Positions 1-7,946 of a DNA stretch of 42,657 bases are shown piece after piece; the first letter of the stretch is position 1; every line of letters starts with the position of its first letter. Origin of the DNA: an uncultured Bacteroidia bacterium. Its GTDB lineage: Bacteria > Bacteroidota > Bacteroidia > Bacteroidales > F082. The notes below the pieces were generated by a model. It worked only from the letters and a program-made list of their open reading frames with translations, was not told where the DNA came from and searched no databases. Location of the stretch: positions 1-42,657 of the forward strand of contig CADBGN010000032.1 of assembly GCA_902794155.1 (NCBI GenBank). The letters run 5' to 3'. The position numbers and the translations under genes were made by a program.

Positions 1-2876
1 TAATCGCTCAATTTATTGATTTCAAATTCGTTTCTTTTTATTGAGCAAGCCTTTGCTTTGTTTTTAGTATTGGTCTTGATTACAGACAAGATATTGACAT
101 CTACAGTTGCGGTGTCAAATACTTTGAAGCCTGAAAAGTCAATTAAATACCAAGGTTGGTATTTCTCAGATAGTAGTGCACGTAAAGACTCACCATATGC
201 TGCTTTCATCCATCCATTTGACGTGATAAACGATAATAGAGCATTAGGCTTAAGTAGCGACATGCCCATTTCATAAAACAGGCAATAAATATCGCCAGTG
301 CGCTCGTAGGTCTGGTAATTCATTTTTTGGAGCGCATCGGCATCCGCCCCCATTTTCTGAAGTTGGATATACGGCGGATTGCCAATGACGCAATCAAAGC
401 CGATAAACTTGCCGTTTTCATCAAGCACTTCGGGGAATTCAATTCGCCACTCGAAAGCATCCACAAAAACCTTATTGTCATGAATCTCATCGATCTCTTT
501 TTGAAGTTTAGCGATCTTGTTCTGCAAGTCTTTCGCTTTTTTGTCGCGTGCCGCCTGTTCCTTCTTGCTAATCTCAAAGAGTTGTGGCGCTAACAAATCG
601 TTTAATTCACTCTCTAGTTTTTGCTTTTCTTTCAGTTTAGGATCATTCTGCCCGATTTGTGTGCGAAGGTTCCCCTTGATCTGCTGTAAATAATCCTCAA
701 GGGTTTTCTTTTCATCCTTGCTGTGCGCGTTTTTATATTTGTTGACCGCCTGACAATAATCGCTTATAGAAATGCCGTTTTTGCGAAGTATTCCAGAGAT
801 GTCCTGAGACAAATCGAAGCGGTGCAACAATGAATTGCCCACCTTAATATTGATGTCGATGTTAGGAAGCGTTTCCAACTCGATGAAGCCGCTTTCCTTC
901 GTGTAATAGGCGTTTTTCAGCAACTCAATCCAAAGGCGAAGACGGCAAATGTTTACTGCGTTGGGATTCAAGTCTACACCAAAAAGACAGTTTTCGATGA
1001 TTTTGCGCTTTTCGTTGAAAAGGGTTTCCTGTATGCGCTGACTTTCAGGATTGCCTGGAATATAGGAAAAAGGATTGCCGTCCTCGTCGGAAACAAGGAG
1101 CTCGTCGTTCTCAATGTCAATGCTGTATTCTTGCTTCTTGACTCGCTTGCCAGTGCTGTCAACCAGTATTCCAAGGTCGTATTTGGTACGGATGATTTCG
1201 TTAAGAACAGAAACAAGGAAGTGGCCAGAACCAACTGCCAGGTCGCAAATATGCATGGAATCAACAATGGCGTTGGCACGAGCAAGATCATCTATATCCT
1301 TGTTTTTGAGGGCGTCGTAGTCCTTGCAAGTCCAATCCATTTCTTCGTTGAAACGGCGTACTACCGTTTGTTGGATAGCTTCGCGGCTCATATACATGGT
1401 GATGGCCCCAGGGGTGAATACGGAACCGTCTTTGTGGCCATTGATTTTTTCGAAAATCAAACCGAGGACAGAAGCGTTGATAAGGGTCTTTGACTGCTCT
1501 TGGACCTCTTCGGAACCTTCGCTTGCAAAGTCGTATGCATCAAGGAATTCAAGCAAATAACGAAGCGTCGGGAGCTGCTTGTAGCGGGGCTTTGAGCCGT
1601 CTTTGAGAACAGTGCTGGCAAAAAGAGGGAGTTCGCTGTTGTCCAATCCACTAATCTTTATGGTTTGACGTTCCAGCTGGTTCACCTCAAACAATGAACT
1701 GTTAAGATATGGCACCTTTCTATACTTTTCATTGATTGAATCGGACCTGTCGGAAACACGTTTGGCAAGAACCTGGAAAAACAGTTTGTTCAATTCGTCA
1801 TAGTCTGGAATGACGGAGGGCTTCATAAATGCATAAGTACTATCGCCTTTATGATATTTGACAAGCTGTGCTTCCAAGAGTTTCAGAAACAAAACCCTAT
1901 TGATCCAATTAATAGTTAGAGCAAGGGCAACATTGAAAAGCTGTTCTTCACGGTTTCCTCCATAGGAAAAACGGTTTTTAACATCATCCAAACAATCTTC
2001 GCTATCCAAAATGTTGATTGCGTTTTCGAGGATGGATGCTTGGTGACGTTCACTTTTGTTTCGACGGGTAATGATGCGTTTGTGGCTGTCCTTCTCCTCA
2101 ATCTCTTCGAGTCCAATGATGTACAATAACTCACTATAGAACTTGGTATTGAGCGAGTTGCTGTCGCTTTGGAAGCGTTTTTTCAGAAGATGTTCTGGGC
2201 TGAAGAACTTAAACAGCTCGATGAGGCGTTTGTCGTTGTCCGATTCAAGGTAAGCTTTATATTTTCTGATGTCAAACCATGTGAAGGTCAGTTGGTCGAC
2301 CACCTGTGCAATAAAATCAGCAGCAATTTCTTTGTAGAAAAAGTCTGTTTTCTCAGACGTTAGCTCTCCTGCATTGAACTCCTCAAAACGCTTGATGAGT
2401 TTCTTGTTGGAGTAGAACAAACGCTCGAACTCCTGAGCATCGAAGACGAAAAATTCGTAGACATTGGTGACCACAAGTTGTTTGAGCTGGAAATTCTTTT
2501 TCGTGTGTCGCTCCCGAAGGTAATATAGAAGCAGCTCTTGTAAGGCTTTCCGATTAAGGTCTTCCCTCGTAATCATCTCTGATACGTTGGTAGGCTTCTT
2601 CACCTCGAAGATAACGCCCACAGGATTGTCGATACTATTGCCCAAATGGATTGCGCAGTCGATATCTCCGTTGGGTGAAACTTTGAAGTCTTGCCCATAA
2701 AACGACAACTTTAGGAAATCCATAAGGTCACCTTTGAGTTTTTCTTCGGTGTTGATGGTCGAAATCTGCTCATAAAGGATATTTAGCTGTTTTTTGAATG
2801 TATCGAAAACTGTGCGGTCAACAGGAATCTGCCGATAAGCTTTATTCAATGATTTGGCAATAGTGAGTTCTAACAT
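1..2876 (-). CDS. Type IIG restriction endonuclease-methyltransferase (partial, C-terminus off left edge)
   Basis: A single open frame runs from an ATG at 2876 to the left edge (958 codons, no stop), so the C-terminus, which normally carries the target recognition domain, is missing. Near the N-terminus D71/D73 followed by E91-V-K93 (GVIFEVKK) fits a PD-(D/E)XK nuclease site. The adenine methyltransferase part has the SAM-binding motif DLAVGSGHF (residues 545-553) and the catalytic NPPY (833-836). A charged coiled-coil-like stretch lies just before NPPY. Nuclease, helical linker and methylase in one chain are the hallmark of Type IIG enzymes, which modify and cut DNA without a separate subunit. 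The start is supported by a TATTTTTG -7 element 22 bases upstream. It is divergent from an ATPase-nuclease pair, suggesting a small defence island. Specificity cannot be read here. Confidence 0.9.
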   Translation of the reverse strand, partial: MLELTIAKSLNKAYRQIPVDRTVFDTFKKQLNILYEQISTINTEEKLKGDLMDFLKLSFYGQDFKVSPNGDIDCAIHLGNSIDNPVGVIFEVKKPTNVSEMITREDLNRKALQELLLYYLRERHTKKNFQLKQLVVTNVYEFFVFDAQEFERLFYSNKKLIKRFEEFNAGELTSEKTDFFYKEIAADFIAQVVDQLTFTWFDIRKYKAYLESDNDKRLIELFKFFSPEHLLKKRFQSDSNSLNTKFYSELLYIIGLEEIEEKDSHKRIITRRNKSERHQASILENAINILDSEDCLDDVKNRFSYGGNREEQLFNVALALTINWINRVLFLKLLEAQLVKYHKGDSTYAFMKPSVIPDYDELNKLFFQVLAKRVSDRSDSINEKYRKVPYLNSSLFEVNQLERQTIKISGLDNSELPLFASTVLKDGSKPRYKQLPTLRYLLEFLDAYDFASEGSEEVQEQSKTLINASVLGLIFEKINGHKDGSVFTPGAITMYMSREAIQQTVVRRFNEEMDWTCKDYDALKNKDIDDLARANAIVDSMHICDLAVGSGHFLVSVLNEIIRTKYDLGILVDSTGKRVKKQEYSIDIENDELLVSDEDGNPFSYIPGNPESQRIQETLFNEKRKIIENCLFGVDLNPNAVNICRLRLWIELLKNAYYTKESGFIELETLPNIDINIKVGNSLLHRFDLSQDISGILRKNGISISDYCQAVNKYKNAHSKDEKKTLEDYLQQIKGNLRTQIGQNDPKLKEKQKLESELNDLLAPQLFEISKKEQAARDKKAKDLQNKIAKLQKEIDEIHDNKVFVDAFEWRIEFPEVLDENGKFIGFDCVIGNPPYIQLQKMGADADALQKMNYQTYERTGDIYCLFYEMGMSLLKPNALLSFITSNGWMKAAYGESLRALLSEKYQPWYLIDFSGFKVFDTATVDVNILSVIKTNTKNKAKACSIKRNEFEINKLSD

Positions 2877-2905: not shown

Positions 2906-3006
2906 CGAACATTTTTCCGATTGTTGAATAGAAATCATAATAACTGATTTTGCTTTGGTAGGCGAGGCCATCATGCTGGCCATGCGGACGGCGATGGAGT
3001 GGGAGT

Positions 3007-3132
3007 CTACATCAACTCCGCTGGATTGATTTGCAGGAAATCTTCTGCTTTGAGGCTACCGTCGACAACGACGAAGATTGCATCGAGATGAAACTTTTCT
3101 TGGAACTTGTTCAGCCTTTCAGTACTTTTCAT
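3007..3132 (-). pseudogene. 41-codon coding remnant, paralogue of the fragment at 5403-5492
   Basis: A minus-strand frame opens at ATG 3132 and closes at TAG 3007. Its C-terminal part, SLKAEDFLQINPAELM, almost matches the fragment at 5403-5492, which ends FLQINPMELM. Most DNA differences between the two copies are synonymous on this strand (CTC/TTG, AAA/AAG, GCA/GCC, GAA/GAG, CCA/CCG), so both descend from translated sequence. Beyond the stop, another frame continues to look coding (about 2940-3009), consistent with decay of a longer gene. I do not recognise the family. It could be a genuine small protein, but its position beside the defence genes favours a relic. Confidence 0.5.
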
Positions 3133-3183: not shown

Positions 3184-3239
3184 TTTGTTTAGATGTAATA
3201 AACAAAAACAAAGGAATTTGTTTAGTGGCATTAAACAAA
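3184..3239. repeat. Two copies of TTTGTTTA-N7-TAAACAAA, 33 bp apart
   Basis: Perfect inverted repeats lie at 3184-3206 (spacer GATGTAA) and 3217-3239 (spacer GTGGCAT). Each has 8-base arms and a 7-base spacer. The 33 bp start-to-start distance is about three helical turns, so two protein dimers would bind the same face of the DNA. This is typical of an operator, but the regulator is unknown and no candidate gene is adjacent. Confidence 0.55.
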
Positions 3240-3420
3240 ACATCTATTTCACTAGCTAATGCCTTCAATTTATAAGCAATCCGTATCTATTAAGAGAGCA
3301 GAAAGATAAAGACTATGAAATTGCCATGAGAGAATTTTGGTTTAATATGTTGAAAGTGTCTATGAGGTTGTAGTTTTGATTGTAAAAGCGACAAACTTTT
3401 TGCATTTGAGTTTTTTCGCG

Positions 3421-3428
3421 TATCTTTG
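3421..3428 (+). promoter_or_regulatory. -7 promoter element of the ATPase-nuclease pair
   Basis: TATCTTTG matches TAnnTTTG and lies 19 bases before the ATG at 3448. A TTTTTGC-rich stretch lies in the expected -33 area. Confidence 0.65.
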
Positions 3429-3447
3429 CCGCTAAATAGAACATCCT

Positions 3448-4602
3448 ATGGAAAAATTCATCATTAAGCACTTTGGCCCAATTAAAGATGTTTCTCTTGA
3501 TTTCGGAGATTTGACTATCCTAGTTGGTCCTCAAGCCAGTGGAAAAAGCATTGCTCTTGAAACCCTAAAGTTAGTCATCGACCGCGACCATGTCATCAAT
3601 ACTTTGGATAGATACAATTACATCATCGGGCACAATACCGAGAACATTCTTAATGTCTATTACGGAGAAGGAATGTCTGATATTTGGAAAGGTGATTCTT
3701 TTATTGAATACGATGGTGAAGCTTTCCTCAAAAGAAGCCTGCCTAAAAAAGCAGATGACAAAGACGAGTCGATGTTTTATATCCCCGCACAACGCATTTT
3801 CAGCATTTCGGATGGCCGACCAAAGAATTTCATGGAATTTGACAGCTCATCGCCTTATATCCTTCGTGCTTTCAGCGAGACCTTGCGACTTTTTATGCAA
3901 AACGGTTTAGGAAATGCCAATGTTTTGTTCCCGATGGGAAACCGTTTGAAAGGTTTTCTTCGCCATTCTTTTGATGAGAGCATTTTCCATAATGCCAAAA
4001 TCATGATGGAGGAACGTGCCGGACAGAAAAAAATGGTACTGAATGTGGACAACATGAGCATACCTTTCATGTCGTGGAGCGCAGGACAGAAGGAATTCAT
4101 GCCGTTGCTATTGGCGTTTTACTGTCTTTCGGGGCCACCTTCAAAAGTGATTAAAAAGGAAAAATACAAATATGTTGTCATCGAAGAGCCGGAAATGGGT
4201 CTTCATCCCAAGGCGATTATCAGCGTTATCTTACAAATTTTGGAACTGATTCAAGCTGGCGGTTACAAAGTCATTGTATCGACACACTCGCCCGTGTTCC
4301 TTGAGTTTGCATGGGGATTCAATGTTTTGAAAGCCAACACACATCAGTATGACGCTTTATATGAAATGTTCAACATCCCTGAAACATCACCAGTCCGTGA
4401 CATGCTTCAAGGTTTGTTTGAAAAGAATATTAAGACATACTATTTCAAACGTGGAAACAGAAACGGGAAAGTTGTGTCACACGACATTTCAACGTTAGAT
4501 GTTGCTGACGCCAACAGTATCATTTCCGAATGGGGCGGCCTGTCGGAGTTTTCAAGCAAAGTTTCAGAAGTCGTCTCGAAATACTCCATCGACAATGAAT
4601 AA
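3448..4602 (+). CDS. AAA/ABC-type ATPase of a two-gene defence-like unit
   Basis: A 384-residue P-loop ATPase of the AAA_15/AAA_21 (SMC/OLD-like) class. It starts with the usual strand-turn of the family (KHFGPIKDVSLDFG). The Walker A is GPQASGKS at 27-34, the ABC-like signature SAGQKEF at 211-217, the Walker B VVIEEPEMGLHP at 243-254 and the switch His in STHSPVF near 280. About 100 residues follow the ATPase core, with no TOPRIM motif visible, so it is not a complete OLD nuclease. The nuclease function is probably supplied by the next gene, whose start codon lies inside this gene's last codons (8-base overlap). Such ATPases commonly act as sensors or motors in phage defence. That role is inferred from the family and from the neighbouring Type IIG gene. 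Confidence 0.85.
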   Translation: MEKFIIKHFGPIKDVSLDFGDLTILVGPQASGKSIALETLKLVIDRDHVINTLDRYNYIIGHNTENILNVYYGEGMSDIWKGDSFIEYDGEAFLKRSLPKKADDKDESMFYIPAQRIFSISDGRPKNFMEFDSSSPYILRAFSETLRLFMQNGLGNANVLFPMGNRLKGFLRHSFDESIFHNAKIMMEERAGQKKMVLNVDNMSIPFMSWSAGQKEFMPLLLAFYCLSGPPSKVIKKEKYKYVVIEEPEMGLHPKAIISVILQILELIQAGGYKVIVSTHSPVFLEFAWGFNVLKANTHQYDALYEMFNIPETSPVRDMLQGLFEKNIKTYYFKRGNRNGKVVSHDISTLDVADANSIISEWGGLSEFSSKVSEVVSKYSIDNE

Positions 4603-5071
4603 CAATCCAGATTCGAGTTTATTAAAGACCGCTGTCGAGCACACGGATGATGTCAAAGGCAATTTCAAAGCTGGTTTGGGTGCCATAAAGAACAATGAGC
4701 GACAAAAATTTGTAGTTCCTGATCCTCGTTTGATTGGAGGCAGTTTGGATATTGATTCATCAACCAAAGACAAGTTTCCCGATAATTTTCGTTGGGATTA
4801 TGCTGTAGAATACAAAAACGAAACGTTTTTCATCGAAATTCATCCTGGTTCGACGAGTGAAATCCAAACAGTTATCGCAAAATTGGATTGGCTAAAACAA
4901 TGGTTAAAAGAAAAAGCACCTGAAATAGATGCACTTAAGCCTAAAGACAAACGGCCTTATCATTGGGTTTTCACGAACAAATTTGCCATCCTTCCAAATT
5001 CAAGATATGCCAAACTGCTCAGTTTACACGGCATAATACCTACTAAGCAATGGGATTATAGCAAATTATAA
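4595..5071 (+). CDS. Small uncharacterised partner protein with nuclease-like D...ExH core
   Basis: A 158-residue protein starting at ATG 4595, overlapping the ATPase stop by 8 bases, which implies translational coupling and a joint function. An upstream in-frame ATG at 4499 would lie deep inside the ATPase gene and is unlikely. The centre reads WDYAVEY (67-73) then FFIEIHPGS (78-86). D68, E81 and H83 have the spacing of a PD-(D/E)XK active site (D-x12-E-x-K), with His where Lys is usual. An acidic LDIDSS lies at 51-56 and an amphipathic helix follows the core (KLDWLKQWLKEK). I do not recognise a named family. Nuclease activity is inference from this pattern and from the ATPase partner. An alternative is a non-catalytic adaptor. 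Confidence 0.7.
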   Translation: MNNNPDSSLLKTAVEHTDDVKGNFKAGLGAIKNNERQKFVVPDPRLIGGSLDIDSSTKDKFPDNFRWDYAVEYKNETFFIEIHPGSTSEIQTVIAKLDWLKQWLKEKAPEIDALKPKDKRPYHWVFTNKFAILPNSRYAKLLSLHGIIPTKQWDYSKL

Positions 5072-5131
5072 ACACATTTATAACCGTAATATTTTTATTT
5101 TGCCCCCTCCACCCGACAGTCTTTTCCCAAT

Positions 5132-5402: not shown

Positions 5403-5492
5403 TCACATCAACTCCATCGGATTGATTTGCAGGAAATCCTCGGCCTTCAAGCTATCTTCCTCAACGATGGAGGTGATTGCATCCTTGCAGCC
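5403..5492 (-). pseudogene. C-terminal coding remnant in frame behind the histidine kinase stop
   Basis: Directly after the kinase TGA (5493-5495), the same frame continues for 29 sense codons to a TGA at 5403. The last residues, SLKAEDFLQINPMELM, match the remnant at 3007-3132. Conservation is at the protein level with mostly synonymous base changes. It may be the tail of a gene deleted next to the kinase. It cannot be excluded that it is an extension reached by UGA readthrough. Confidence 0.45.
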
Positions 5493-7946
5493 TCACCCAA
5501 TCCCATACTTCTCCGCCAACAAGTCCATCAATTCGTCGGTTTGGGCCATGAATTGGGTGGCGTCTTCTTTCCAGTTCGGGTAGTCGTCTTCCGTCTCGTT
5601 CTTGCCGCGCATGGCATTCATCCTAGCAAGGAAGGTGGTGTCGCGTTCCAATTGGATAAACATGGGAAGCATCTTGTGGCAAAGTCCTTGCATTTCAACG
5701 AAATCAGATTGTTCAATTAAAGTGTTCATCGAAACCAAGTCATTGGCTGTCGACTGCGCAAAGACGGTCAAGATGTCGGTCATGGCTTCCTTGTCGTTGC
5801 CCATCATTTCGCTGAAATTGGGGAAGTCGGGAAAGGCGATTTCCTCTTCGTTTTCACTTAAAGCGACACTTCCGAATAAGCTTTCTAACTGCTTTAAATT
5901 GAATGGTTTTTGTAGGAATCCATCAAAGCCTTCTTTCTTGGCTTTTTCGTTGGTGTATTCGATGCGCCCGGTCATCAAGATGACAGGTTTGTTGGCATCG
6001 GTTTCCTTAAAGATATGGAGGATGTCGTTGCCGGTGAGGGCACCCATCTCTCGGTCGGTGAGAATATAGTCATAATCAGCGATTTGCGCTACGGCACCCT
6101 CTACGTCGCTTTTCGACCTGCAGGGGATGGCTTGGTGCCCGAGGCGGTGCAACATGGTGTCGATGACGGAAAGAAGGGTGTTGTCGTCGTCAATAATCAG
6201 GATGTTCAGGCTCTTTTTGTTGTCCACAAGCTCTTCTTTGGCTTCGGGCGACGACTCCACGACGCCTACAGGAATCCTAACCTCGAAATGCGAGCCTTTG
6301 TCGACTTCCGACTCGATTTGGATCTGGCCTCCGAGGAGGTCGACAAGACCTTTGACCACCGACATGCCATAGCCGCTACCTTCGGCGAACTGGTTGTAGG
6401 TTTCGATACGTACGAAGGGCTTGAATACCTCTTCCAACTTGTCGGAAGGAATGCCTACACCCGTGTCGGTGATGTCGAATACAATCAGGTTGCGCCCCAT
6501 GCGTGCCTTGAAGGTGACGCTGCCTTCCAAGGTGTATTTGACGCCATTGGAAATCAAGTTGCTGAGTATCTGTTTGATTTTCAGTCGGTCGGAAAGGATG
6601 GTGCAGTCTTCTTCGATGGAAGGCTCGTAGATAAACTGCAGGTTCTTGTGGCGGGCTATGGGCTCAAACATCTCGGCGGTCTCGTCGCAGAGTTGGCGCA
6701 GGTTGAAGGCTTCGTTGCTGACTTTCAGCTTGCCTTGTTCGAGGCTCGAGAACTCCAAGAGGTTGGTCAGCAGGTTGAGGATGTGGTCGGCGGATTGCTG
6801 TATGGAGCTGAATTCTTTCTCGTTCTTTGACTTGTCCATGAGTTCCACGTTGCCCATGATGGAACTCAGCGGGGTCTTGATGTCGTGGGTGACAGAGAGC
6901 AGCAGCTTGTGGCGGCTTTCCATGATTTCCTCGGTCTTCCGTTTGGCTTCCTCGGCGGCGCGACGGGCACGATAACCTTTGTTTACATCACTGATTATCA
7001 GTATAATGAATATAATGATAAGTCCAAGCGTGACGGCACCGATAAGGATGGAGTACCGTGTGTTTTCTTGGATGATTTCCTCGCTTTTTTCGATTTCCTT
7101 GATGGTGGAGTCGAGGATCTCTTGGTTAAGGCGAATGAGCAAGGAGGAAATCTGTTCCGAGAGTTGGTTGTCGGCCTTCACCAGTTCCTGCGTTTTTTTC
7201 TCGTATTGCTTGATCTTGTTCCAATACTCGGTTTTGGCTTTGTCGGAGAGCACGCGCAGGTCGGCGAGGATGTTGACGGAGTCTTGGCCTTGGTGCTGGA
7301 TGCGAAGCGTGTCGCTCTGTTCGATGGAGACATGCACCAGGCTGTCTCCCTGTTCCTCCGAAGAGTCGAAGACCTGGCCGACGCGTTGCCAGAAGCTCTT
7401 TTTCTCCGCCTTCTTTGGCACATGGATGATGGTGTCTTTCGACACGGTGGTGACCACAATCTCTTCTTCGGGCTTCGGGGGGCGGTAGTCGTCGATGGTG
7501 CGGTCGAATTCGGCCAAGGGGTTGAAGTCGTGGAACTGTTTCGACAACTCGTTGCTAAGTCTGCCTTTGCTCCTGATGAGGTTGTCTATCTCGTTCACCA
7601 TCAATTTGTTGTCTTCGCTGATTTCGAACAAGAGCAGTGAGTCAGTCTGGTTCTTGATGGCATCGCGGTAAGCGTTAAATTCACGTCTGTATTTGGCCTG
7701 TTCGGTGAAGGCGTAAAGGTTGGCCGCATTTTGTGCGGCATGCACGTTCTTGGTGAAGTTGTTGACCCAGTTGAGGGCGTCGTGTTGCGTGTTGATGTTG
7801 GAGCGTTGGTTATCGATGCTCTTTCTCAGGTTGAAGATATAGTAAAACAAAGCCGCGCAAAGGGCAATGACGAACAGATAGGTGATGACCACCTTCCAAC
7901 TCGTCCTGCTCCCGCTGGGGTATTCGTTTTGGCTTTTCTTCGACAT
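5493..7946 (-). CDS. Hybrid sensor histidine kinase (HisKA-HATPase-REC-Hpt)
   Basis: An 817-residue inner-membrane phosphorelay sensor. TM1 is at about residues 19-38. A periplasmic, largely helical domain of about 255 residues follows, then TM2 (SILIGAVTLGLIIIFIILII). The kinase H-box is THDIKTPL (His354) and the ATP-binding lid region includes DITDTGVGIP. A receiver domain begins LNILIIDDDN with phospho-acceptor D631 (LTDREMG). A C-terminal histidine phosphotransfer-like segment has His757 (LCHKMLPMF). Relay His354 to D631 to His757 to an outside regulator is the expected scheme, but no response regulator gene is adjacent; a remnant follows instead. The signal is unknown. Its -7 element is so close to the ATG that the mRNA may be nearly leaderless. 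It is divergent from the nucleotidase gene. Confidence 0.9.
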   Translation of the reverse strand: MSKKSQNEYPSGSRTSWKVVITYLFVIALCAALFYYIFNLRKSIDNQRSNINTQHDALNWVNNFTKNVHAAQNAANLYAFTEQAKYRREFNAYRDAIKNQTDSLLLFEISEDNKLMVNEIDNLIRSKGRLSNELSKQFHDFNPLAEFDRTIDDYRPPKPEEEIVVTTVSKDTIIHVPKKAEKKSFWQRVGQVFDSSEEQGDSLVHVSIEQSDTLRIQHQGQDSVNILADLRVLSDKAKTEYWNKIKQYEKKTQELVKADNQLSEQISSLLIRLNQEILDSTIKEIEKSEEIIQENTRYSILIGAVTLGLIIIFIILIISDVNKGYRARRAAEEAKRKTEEIMESRHKLLLSVTHDIKTPLSSIMGNVELMDKSKNEKEFSSIQQSADHILNLLTNLLEFSSLEQGKLKVSNEAFNLRQLCDETAEMFEPIARHKNLQFIYEPSIEEDCTILSDRLKIKQILSNLISNGVKYTLEGSVTFKARMGRNLIVFDITDTGVGIPSDKLEEVFKPFVRIETYNQFAEGSGYGMSVVKGLVDLLGGQIQIESEVDKGSHFEVRIPVGVVESSPEAKEELVDNKKSLNILIIDDDNTLLSVIDTMLHRLGHQAIPCRSKSDVEGAVAQIADYDYILTDREMGALTGNDILHIFKETDANKPVILMTGRIEYTNEKAKKEGFDGFLQKPFNLKQLESLFGSVALSENEEEIAFPDFPNFSEMMGNDKEAMTDILTVFAQSTANDLVSMNTLIEQSDFVEMQGLCHKMLPMFIQLERDTTFLARMNAMRGKNETEDDYPNWKEDATQFMAQTDELMDLLAEKYGIG

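Follow-up and report, generated by a model that had tools for sequence, protein, structure and literature searches.

The proven system closest in kind to the gene pair described here is WonAB, which is encoded in the WASA-1 prophage of V. cholerae and combines an OLD-type ABC ATPase with WonB, a 16.1 kDa variant of the PD-(D/E)xK nucleases (PMC12137116). As reported there, protection needs both genes and is lost with point mutations in either the ATPase or the nuclease. WonAB aborts infection, with translation stopping and the host DNA remaining intact, and the authors propose rRNA or tRNA as its target and rule out simple antitoxin sequestration (PMC12137116). The system is also named in PMC12409358.

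Our window, the whole of the 42,657-nucleotide contig G000:C32 from an assembly of 3.28 Mb in 205 contigs, contains two adjoining genes on the forward strand: gene A (3448-4602), for an OLD/Rad50-type ABC ATPase of 384 aa, and gene B (4595-5071), for a small probable nuclease of 158 aa. The likeness to WonAB, which we compared through its published description, appears to be one of architecture. Both WonAB and the 'OLD-ABC ATPase + Novel REase' operons that a 2020 survey reportedly described share with A and B a two-gene operon for an OLD-type ABC ATPase and a small protein, which is PD-(D/E)xK-like in those operons and putatively so in B. The layout of A and B is that of the WonAB type, an ATPase and a small nuclease in one operon, with B assigned as a nuclease by its motif. 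The residues mutated in WonA include K34, E300 and H333, for which the presumed equivalents in A are K33, E247 and H280, so WonA would have about 50 more residues in between. The essential lysine of WonB is published as K71, whereas B has an ExH motif and a lysine on a helix, K96, instead. No model named WonAB was among the PADLOC or NCBIfam matches listed.

While the sequence-only reading of this DNA did not recognise the pairing, it is in fact catalogued. The PADLOC-DB 2.0.0 profile PDC-M56A matches A with 540 bits (residues 1-380 of 384 on positions 1-378 of 382 of the profile), and PDC-M56B matches B with 166.3 bits (positions 5-149 of 151), the only match for B there at E <= 1. As both proteins match from end to end and their genes adjoin, the pair is this listed candidate system, and we found no difference from it. 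The PDC entries of PADLOC are described as putative candidates found through guilt-by-embedding, mostly without experimental validation (PMC12988326). The name PDC-M56 was found in no main text of the literature searched, though supplementary files, outside that search, may name it, and the literature search found no experiment on any PDC-M56 member.

Other systems with an ATPase of this type were compared as well. A resembles PtuA of the Septu and retron PtuAB systems by its fold and weakly by profile (6.6e-9), and both pairs combine an ATPase with a small nuclease. PtuB is an HNH nuclease, and HNH is named in PDB titles among the fold matches of A; B on the other hand has no Pfam family and no match to PtuB. 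Gabija has an OLD-type ATPase in common with the pair and a GajB-like UvrD helicase follows B at two related loci (L015 and L016), but A, with 384 aa, has no Toprim domain among its Pfam matches above the cut-off, which are to ATPase domains and DUF2813, and the pair in the window has no adjoining helicase; tblastn with the L015 helicase gave no match there. The match of A to AriA of PARIS (AriAB; 1.1e-25, 89 bits) is far below that to PDC-M56A, and in place of AriB there is a protein that matches PDC-M56B only. For PD-T4-4, A reaches only 37.4 bits and B has no match to the profiles; this family was found in none of 148 Bacteroidota genomes, in a search whose positive control gave no signal either.

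The ATPase and its small partner

Both open reading frames are at the positions first read and their overlap, given as eight nucleotides, measures 8 nt. The start of B is the ATG at 4595, an alternative in-frame ATG at 4499 giving a 190-aa ORF. Overlaps of 4-17 nt were found in 11 of the 12 pairs measured, the exception being a 3-nt gap in L014, which suggests that translation of the two genes is coupled. Upstream of A, on the same strand, there is a site (3397-3428) with TTTTTG (3397-3402), an 18-nt spacer and TATCTTTG (3421-3428), which is promoter-like by the consensus for this phylum. The TATCTTTG box is also present 5' of A in L002, L003 and L004, with variants in L005; TAnnTTTG is absent within 80 nt of A in the seven remaining loci examined and arises by chance in 9% of shuffles of the upstream 80 nt of the window. 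A single promoter for A and B is plausible. The segment is richer in AT, as had been claimed, with a GC content of 0.41 for A and 0.375 for B as compared with 0.50 for 8005-42657. The Type IIG restriction-modification gene (1-2876, reverse strand; PDLC03612, 719.7 bits, residues 7-949) is likewise divergent from A, reading from about 2876 and still open where the left end of the contig cuts it.

The four ATPase motifs picked out in the sequence-only reading, GPQASGKS, SAGQKEF, VVIEEPEM and STHSPVF, are all present in the translation of A, and the view that A has no nuclease of its own is supported by Pfam, which lists neither Toprim nor any other nuclease family. The families that Pfam does assign are AAA_15 (6.8e-22) and AAA_21 (7.6e-19), with DUF2813 also above the cut-off. 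A profile search gave an OLD-family protein as the nearest solved chain (1.1e-12). The fold predicted from nine sequences has a pLDDT of 80.9 and a pTM of 0.86, and in Foldseek it matched Rad50 and PtuA (from Septu and retrons) with E of about 1e-7 and modest TM-scores near 0.4. By its predicted structure A is a Rad50/PtuA-like ATPase. The tail that follows the ATPase head is specific to the family and has an invariant WGG at 362-364.

The B of the window was aligned with 14 relatives (L002-L007, L014-L020 and L030). The D...ExH core noticed earlier corresponds to D68, E81 and H83, which are found in all 15 sequences, and K96, missing from that account, is equally invariant. The other invariant residues are S50, W67, Y69, L104, W124 and G146. 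All four of D, E, H and K are kept even in the B of L020, which is only 28% identical, as would be expected of an active site. K96 is 15 residues after E81 and inside a predicted helix (87-114). Motifs II and III of the PD-(D/E)xK nucleases look similar to this 'WDY ... E-x-H ... K' pattern, in which histidine replaces the classical lysine. PMC551604 describes nucleases whose lysine has shifted to the adjacent helix, at a distance of 14 or 16 residues, the examples being E111 and K127 (spacing 16) and R118 of an EXR motif with K130 (spacing 14, by our subtraction); the same source notes that proteins with the PD-(D/E)xK fold but without catalysis exist.

No Pfam family matched B at E <= 1 and the three solved structures that a profile search returned all had E > 1, so that the small protein belongs to no characterised family in these searches, a result that the sequence-only reading had left to be checked. 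The best of the AlphaFold2 models, made with eight sequences, has a pLDDT of 74 and the other four 39-61; Foldseek found nothing at E <= 0.001 in the PDB or among viral models. The order of helices and strands and the conserved residues fit the PD-(D/E)xK fold, and since the model has no fold match the assignment comes from motif and secondary structure. On these grounds we consider it probable that B is a nuclease. Membership of B in the Uma2/COG4636 family (PF05685) was considered and rejected: hhalign gave a probability of 0.1% against 22 Uma2 sequences, in a comparison run with no control pair, and Pfam gave no match. The 22 sequences came from 30 loci, eight being dropped because neither of the two offsets expected gave a frame that was free of stops and had the motif. 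Uma2 shares the D...ExX...K pattern with near-equal spacing and the lysine on the next helix, and is kept as an analogy.

Co-occurrence, neighbours and mobility

That A and B belong together, as first proposed, is borne out by the 15 loci with B, in 14 of which A is directly 5'. The exception is L018, where B is shortened and there is no A within its 20 kb. This protein (L018:9713-10066, reverse strand) is of the B type without the first ~37 residues and may be an orphan or a remnant. Among 16 loci with A, a full B was found in 13; L019 has only a piece of B without a start codon beside A, in L022 there is at most a weak trace of its N-terminus (hmmsearch 0.09), and no B was recognised in L021, whose A is truncated at the edge of the contig. 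In 395 Bacteroidota genomes A was found in five (E <= 1e-25) and B in six, the five being within the six, and every A-bearing genome has B sequence adjoining, though in G058 this is a piece without a start codon. An ATPase usually occurring without its partner, which had been named as a result that would count against the pairing, did not appear. In its own genus B was present in one of 36 genomes. The pair is rare and patchy.

PADLOC gave clear matches near the pair to the Type IIG enzyme in the window, to RT-DUF1848, PDC-S02 and PDC-S01 in L004, to a PDC-M29A-like gene in L006, and to a type III methylase and HEC-07 in L015, while a subtilase model is matched in L016 (108.7 bits). The gene in L006 (10785-11960, forward strand), just 3' of the pair and near the contig end, encodes a second, distant ABC ATPase (PDC-M29A, 147.7 bits). 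At E 1e-8 there was no match for the tested neighbours in L002, L003, L005, L007, L014, L017, L019 and L030. The neighbours were picked by hand, 30 proteins (one being the Type IIG enzyme of the window), four more from L003, L014, L017 and L030 and a repeat for L016; the tally has no control regions and leaves the neighbours in L020 outside the PADLOC scan, and is not a measure of enrichment.

In L015 and L016, both from one genus, a gene for a UvrD-type helicase of 686 aa follows B, by 8 nt in L015 (7582-9642, reverse strand) and 10 nt in L016 (2764-4824, forward strand). The two helicases are 73% identical and absent from the other 12 of the 14 pair loci. The N-terminus has a weak RelE/HigB-like match, with an E of 0.009 that is below the cut-off. 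A three-gene version of the system that includes the helicase is possible.

The pair also occurs on mobile elements. In L014 it adjoins the relaxase gene of a mobilisable (MOBF) plasmid from Verrucomicrobiota, and the single match in plasmid records is from Opitutaceae TAV5. In the viral contig L020 it lies between the gene for the major head protein and, past one phage gene of unknown function, that for a head-tail adaptor, with these phage genes all opposite in direction to the pair. A tblastn search of viral contigs with B gave no match, the B of L020 being found only by profile, via A. Phage records held no B and a single weak match to A (E 1e-4).

Exchange of the pair at a variable chromosomal site

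The sequence-only reading placed the pair between relics, and these are real, consisting of the 3' tail of one 375-405-aa gene and two 3' tails of AAA_14/DUF4143 genes. The first (2946-3027, forward strand) is 84% identical to L002 and 87% to L003, where the gene is intact 5' of A. It runs into the 3' tail of an AAA_14/DUF4143 gene (3007-3132, reverse strand; tblastn 6.4e-6 with the L068 gene), and the junction of these two relics is as in L068 (91% over 113 nt). To the right of the pair the second AAA_14/DUF4143 3' tail (5406-5486, reverse strand; tblastn 5.1e-5) repeats the left one (78%). Beyond this is a hybrid histidine kinase gene (5493-7946, reverse strand, 817 aa, its identity read from the sequence), a flanking chromosomal gene that anchors the site and has a match in 36 of the 40 genomes from the genus (E <= 1e-100).

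We fetched the flanks of the kinase gene from 12 genomes of the same genus, L069 and L073 being on short stretches. The neighbour on the 3' side varies among the species groups. Recurring occupants are a 451-465-aa gene (three of the 12), an 836-865-aa gene (two) and a 136-aa gene (two). G418 (L070, G418:C7) has a complete type I R-M system (HsdM, HsdS and HsdR) at the site, and in G415 an AAA_14/DUF4143 gene (PDC-S01, 573.6 bits) is situated between the kinase and a 413-aa gene; the PADLOC scan of these flanks covered the genes of L068 and L070. The same chromosomal site in related species thus holds varied genes, some of defence type, in agreement with the setting of defence cargo suggested earlier.

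The 375-413-aa protein is met repeatedly, either next to the pair or at this site (L002:62-1189, L003:7394-8611 and, with 413 aa, L068), and the genome of the window has a near-full copy elsewhere (G000:C54:939-2102). It was found in seven of the 40 genomes of the genus, and Pfam gave no match for the L002 and L003 copies.

The exchange of the pair can be followed by comparing loci. A block of A, B and the upstream region (3204-5078) is 97.4% identical to L003 by blastn, and up to 5071 it is 99.1% identical to L002, with flanks that differ or are ~82-87% identical. As the kinase gene and the upstream tail are only 86.7% and 87% identical to L003, exchange of the pair is more recent than the divergence of its flanks. 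From these identities the pair is exchanged as a cassette, the unit being a compact, mobile ATPase and small probable nuclease of ~1.6 kb. The window and L003 differ in A by 1 nonsynonymous and 10 synonymous changes and in B by 12 of each. Since synonymous differences per site are also more numerous in B, its faster change may be due in part to recombination and not to selection.

The pair in L003 has the homologue of the 413-aa gene on one side and a short AAA_14 tail on the other; in the window that homologue is reduced to its tail, the two AAA_14 tails form direct repeats around the pair, and the Type IIG gene is outside. In the 14 pair loci the AAA_14 tail motif occurs four times, always less than 400 nt from the pair and in three of the loci (twice in the window, L003:10616-10663 and L004:10568-10600). 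This arrangement of sequences suggests, short of proof, that the exchange takes place by recombination at these genes, and AAA_14/DUF4143 (PDC-S01-type) genes may be recombination sites for defence cassettes.

A proposed mechanism and its alternatives

Taken with the PDC-M56 matches, the co-occurrence of the genes, the conserved residues of B, the fold of A, the defence neighbours, the plasmid and phage settings, the exchange and the precedent of WonAB, the pair very probably has a role in defence. We also favour, with rather less assurance, a complete mechanism in which A and B form a two-gene unit for phage defence of the abortive-infection type. Like Rad50 and PtuA, A would form dimers by way of its ABC ATPase head, and it would hold or position B. 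It is probably A that senses infection, and the trigger would be a product of the phage infection. Once triggered, B would act as a metal-dependent PD-(D/E)xK nuclease in which the lysine of ExK has become histidine and K96 of the next helix substitutes for it. By analogy with WonAB its target would probably be host RNA needed for translation, and growth would stop before virions form. Complex formation, trigger, nuclease activity and target are all proposed parts of this model. Against it are the absence of a fold match for B, the negligible Uma2 score, the loci without defence matches and the B of L018 without A.

The main competing explanation is that B cuts the DNA of an invading phage or plasmid, with A as a Rad50-like motor that finds this DNA or loads on to it, and with no shutdown of the host. 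The resemblance of A to Rad50, the restriction genes near the pair and the helicase of L015 and L016, as expected of a DNA-processing machine, would all fit. That helicase is present in only two of the pair loci, though, both from one genus, and WonAB, the nearest in architecture, spares host DNA and stops translation; we regard DNA cutting as a minority possibility. Less likely again is that B is a catalytically dead binding or adaptor subunit and A alone is active. ExH stands in place of ExK in every one of the 15 sequences, PMC551604 provides precedents for a PD-(D/E)xK fold that does not catalyse, and B is changing faster than A, but retention of D, E, H and K throughout, even in the divergent L020, speaks for a working active site.

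Toxin-antitoxin pairs usually have a small antitoxin rather than an ABC ATPase of 384 aa. A maintenance module of this or another kind, serving the element and not phage defence, is suggested by the small overlapping operon and by the plasmid and the phage contig that carry it; it seems improbable, as A is no small antitoxin, defence genes adjoin the pair at several loci and the WonAB authors exclude simple antitoxin sequestration. The Rad50/RecN-like head of A might also point to a pair for housekeeping DNA repair, an explanation that is scarcely credible for genes so patchily distributed (5-6 of 395 Bacteroidota genomes) and exchanged as a cassette.

Returning to the abortive-infection unit, the observations can be joined in a broader and more doubtful reading. 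B might represent a new D-ExH-K family of nucleases, in which the lysine has moved to the helix and the vacant position been taken by an invariant histidine. An ABC sensor would run it, its substrate would be a cellular RNA, its origin would be independent of that of WonB, and recruitment of the helicase with the RelE-like N-terminus in one lineage would have given a three-part machine.

The pair, then, is no new kind of biology: it is already catalogued as a candidate, and WonAB has shown in outline how systems of its kind work. The analysis turns an undescribed catalogue entry into a testable pair of 1.6 kb with four named residues and a phenotype predicted from WonAB. The flank of the kinase gene is a place to seek further defence genes in this genus. 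If confirmed, the pair would bring a Bacteroidota branch, and a variant of the active site, into the class of systems that combine an ATPase sensor with a small nuclease.
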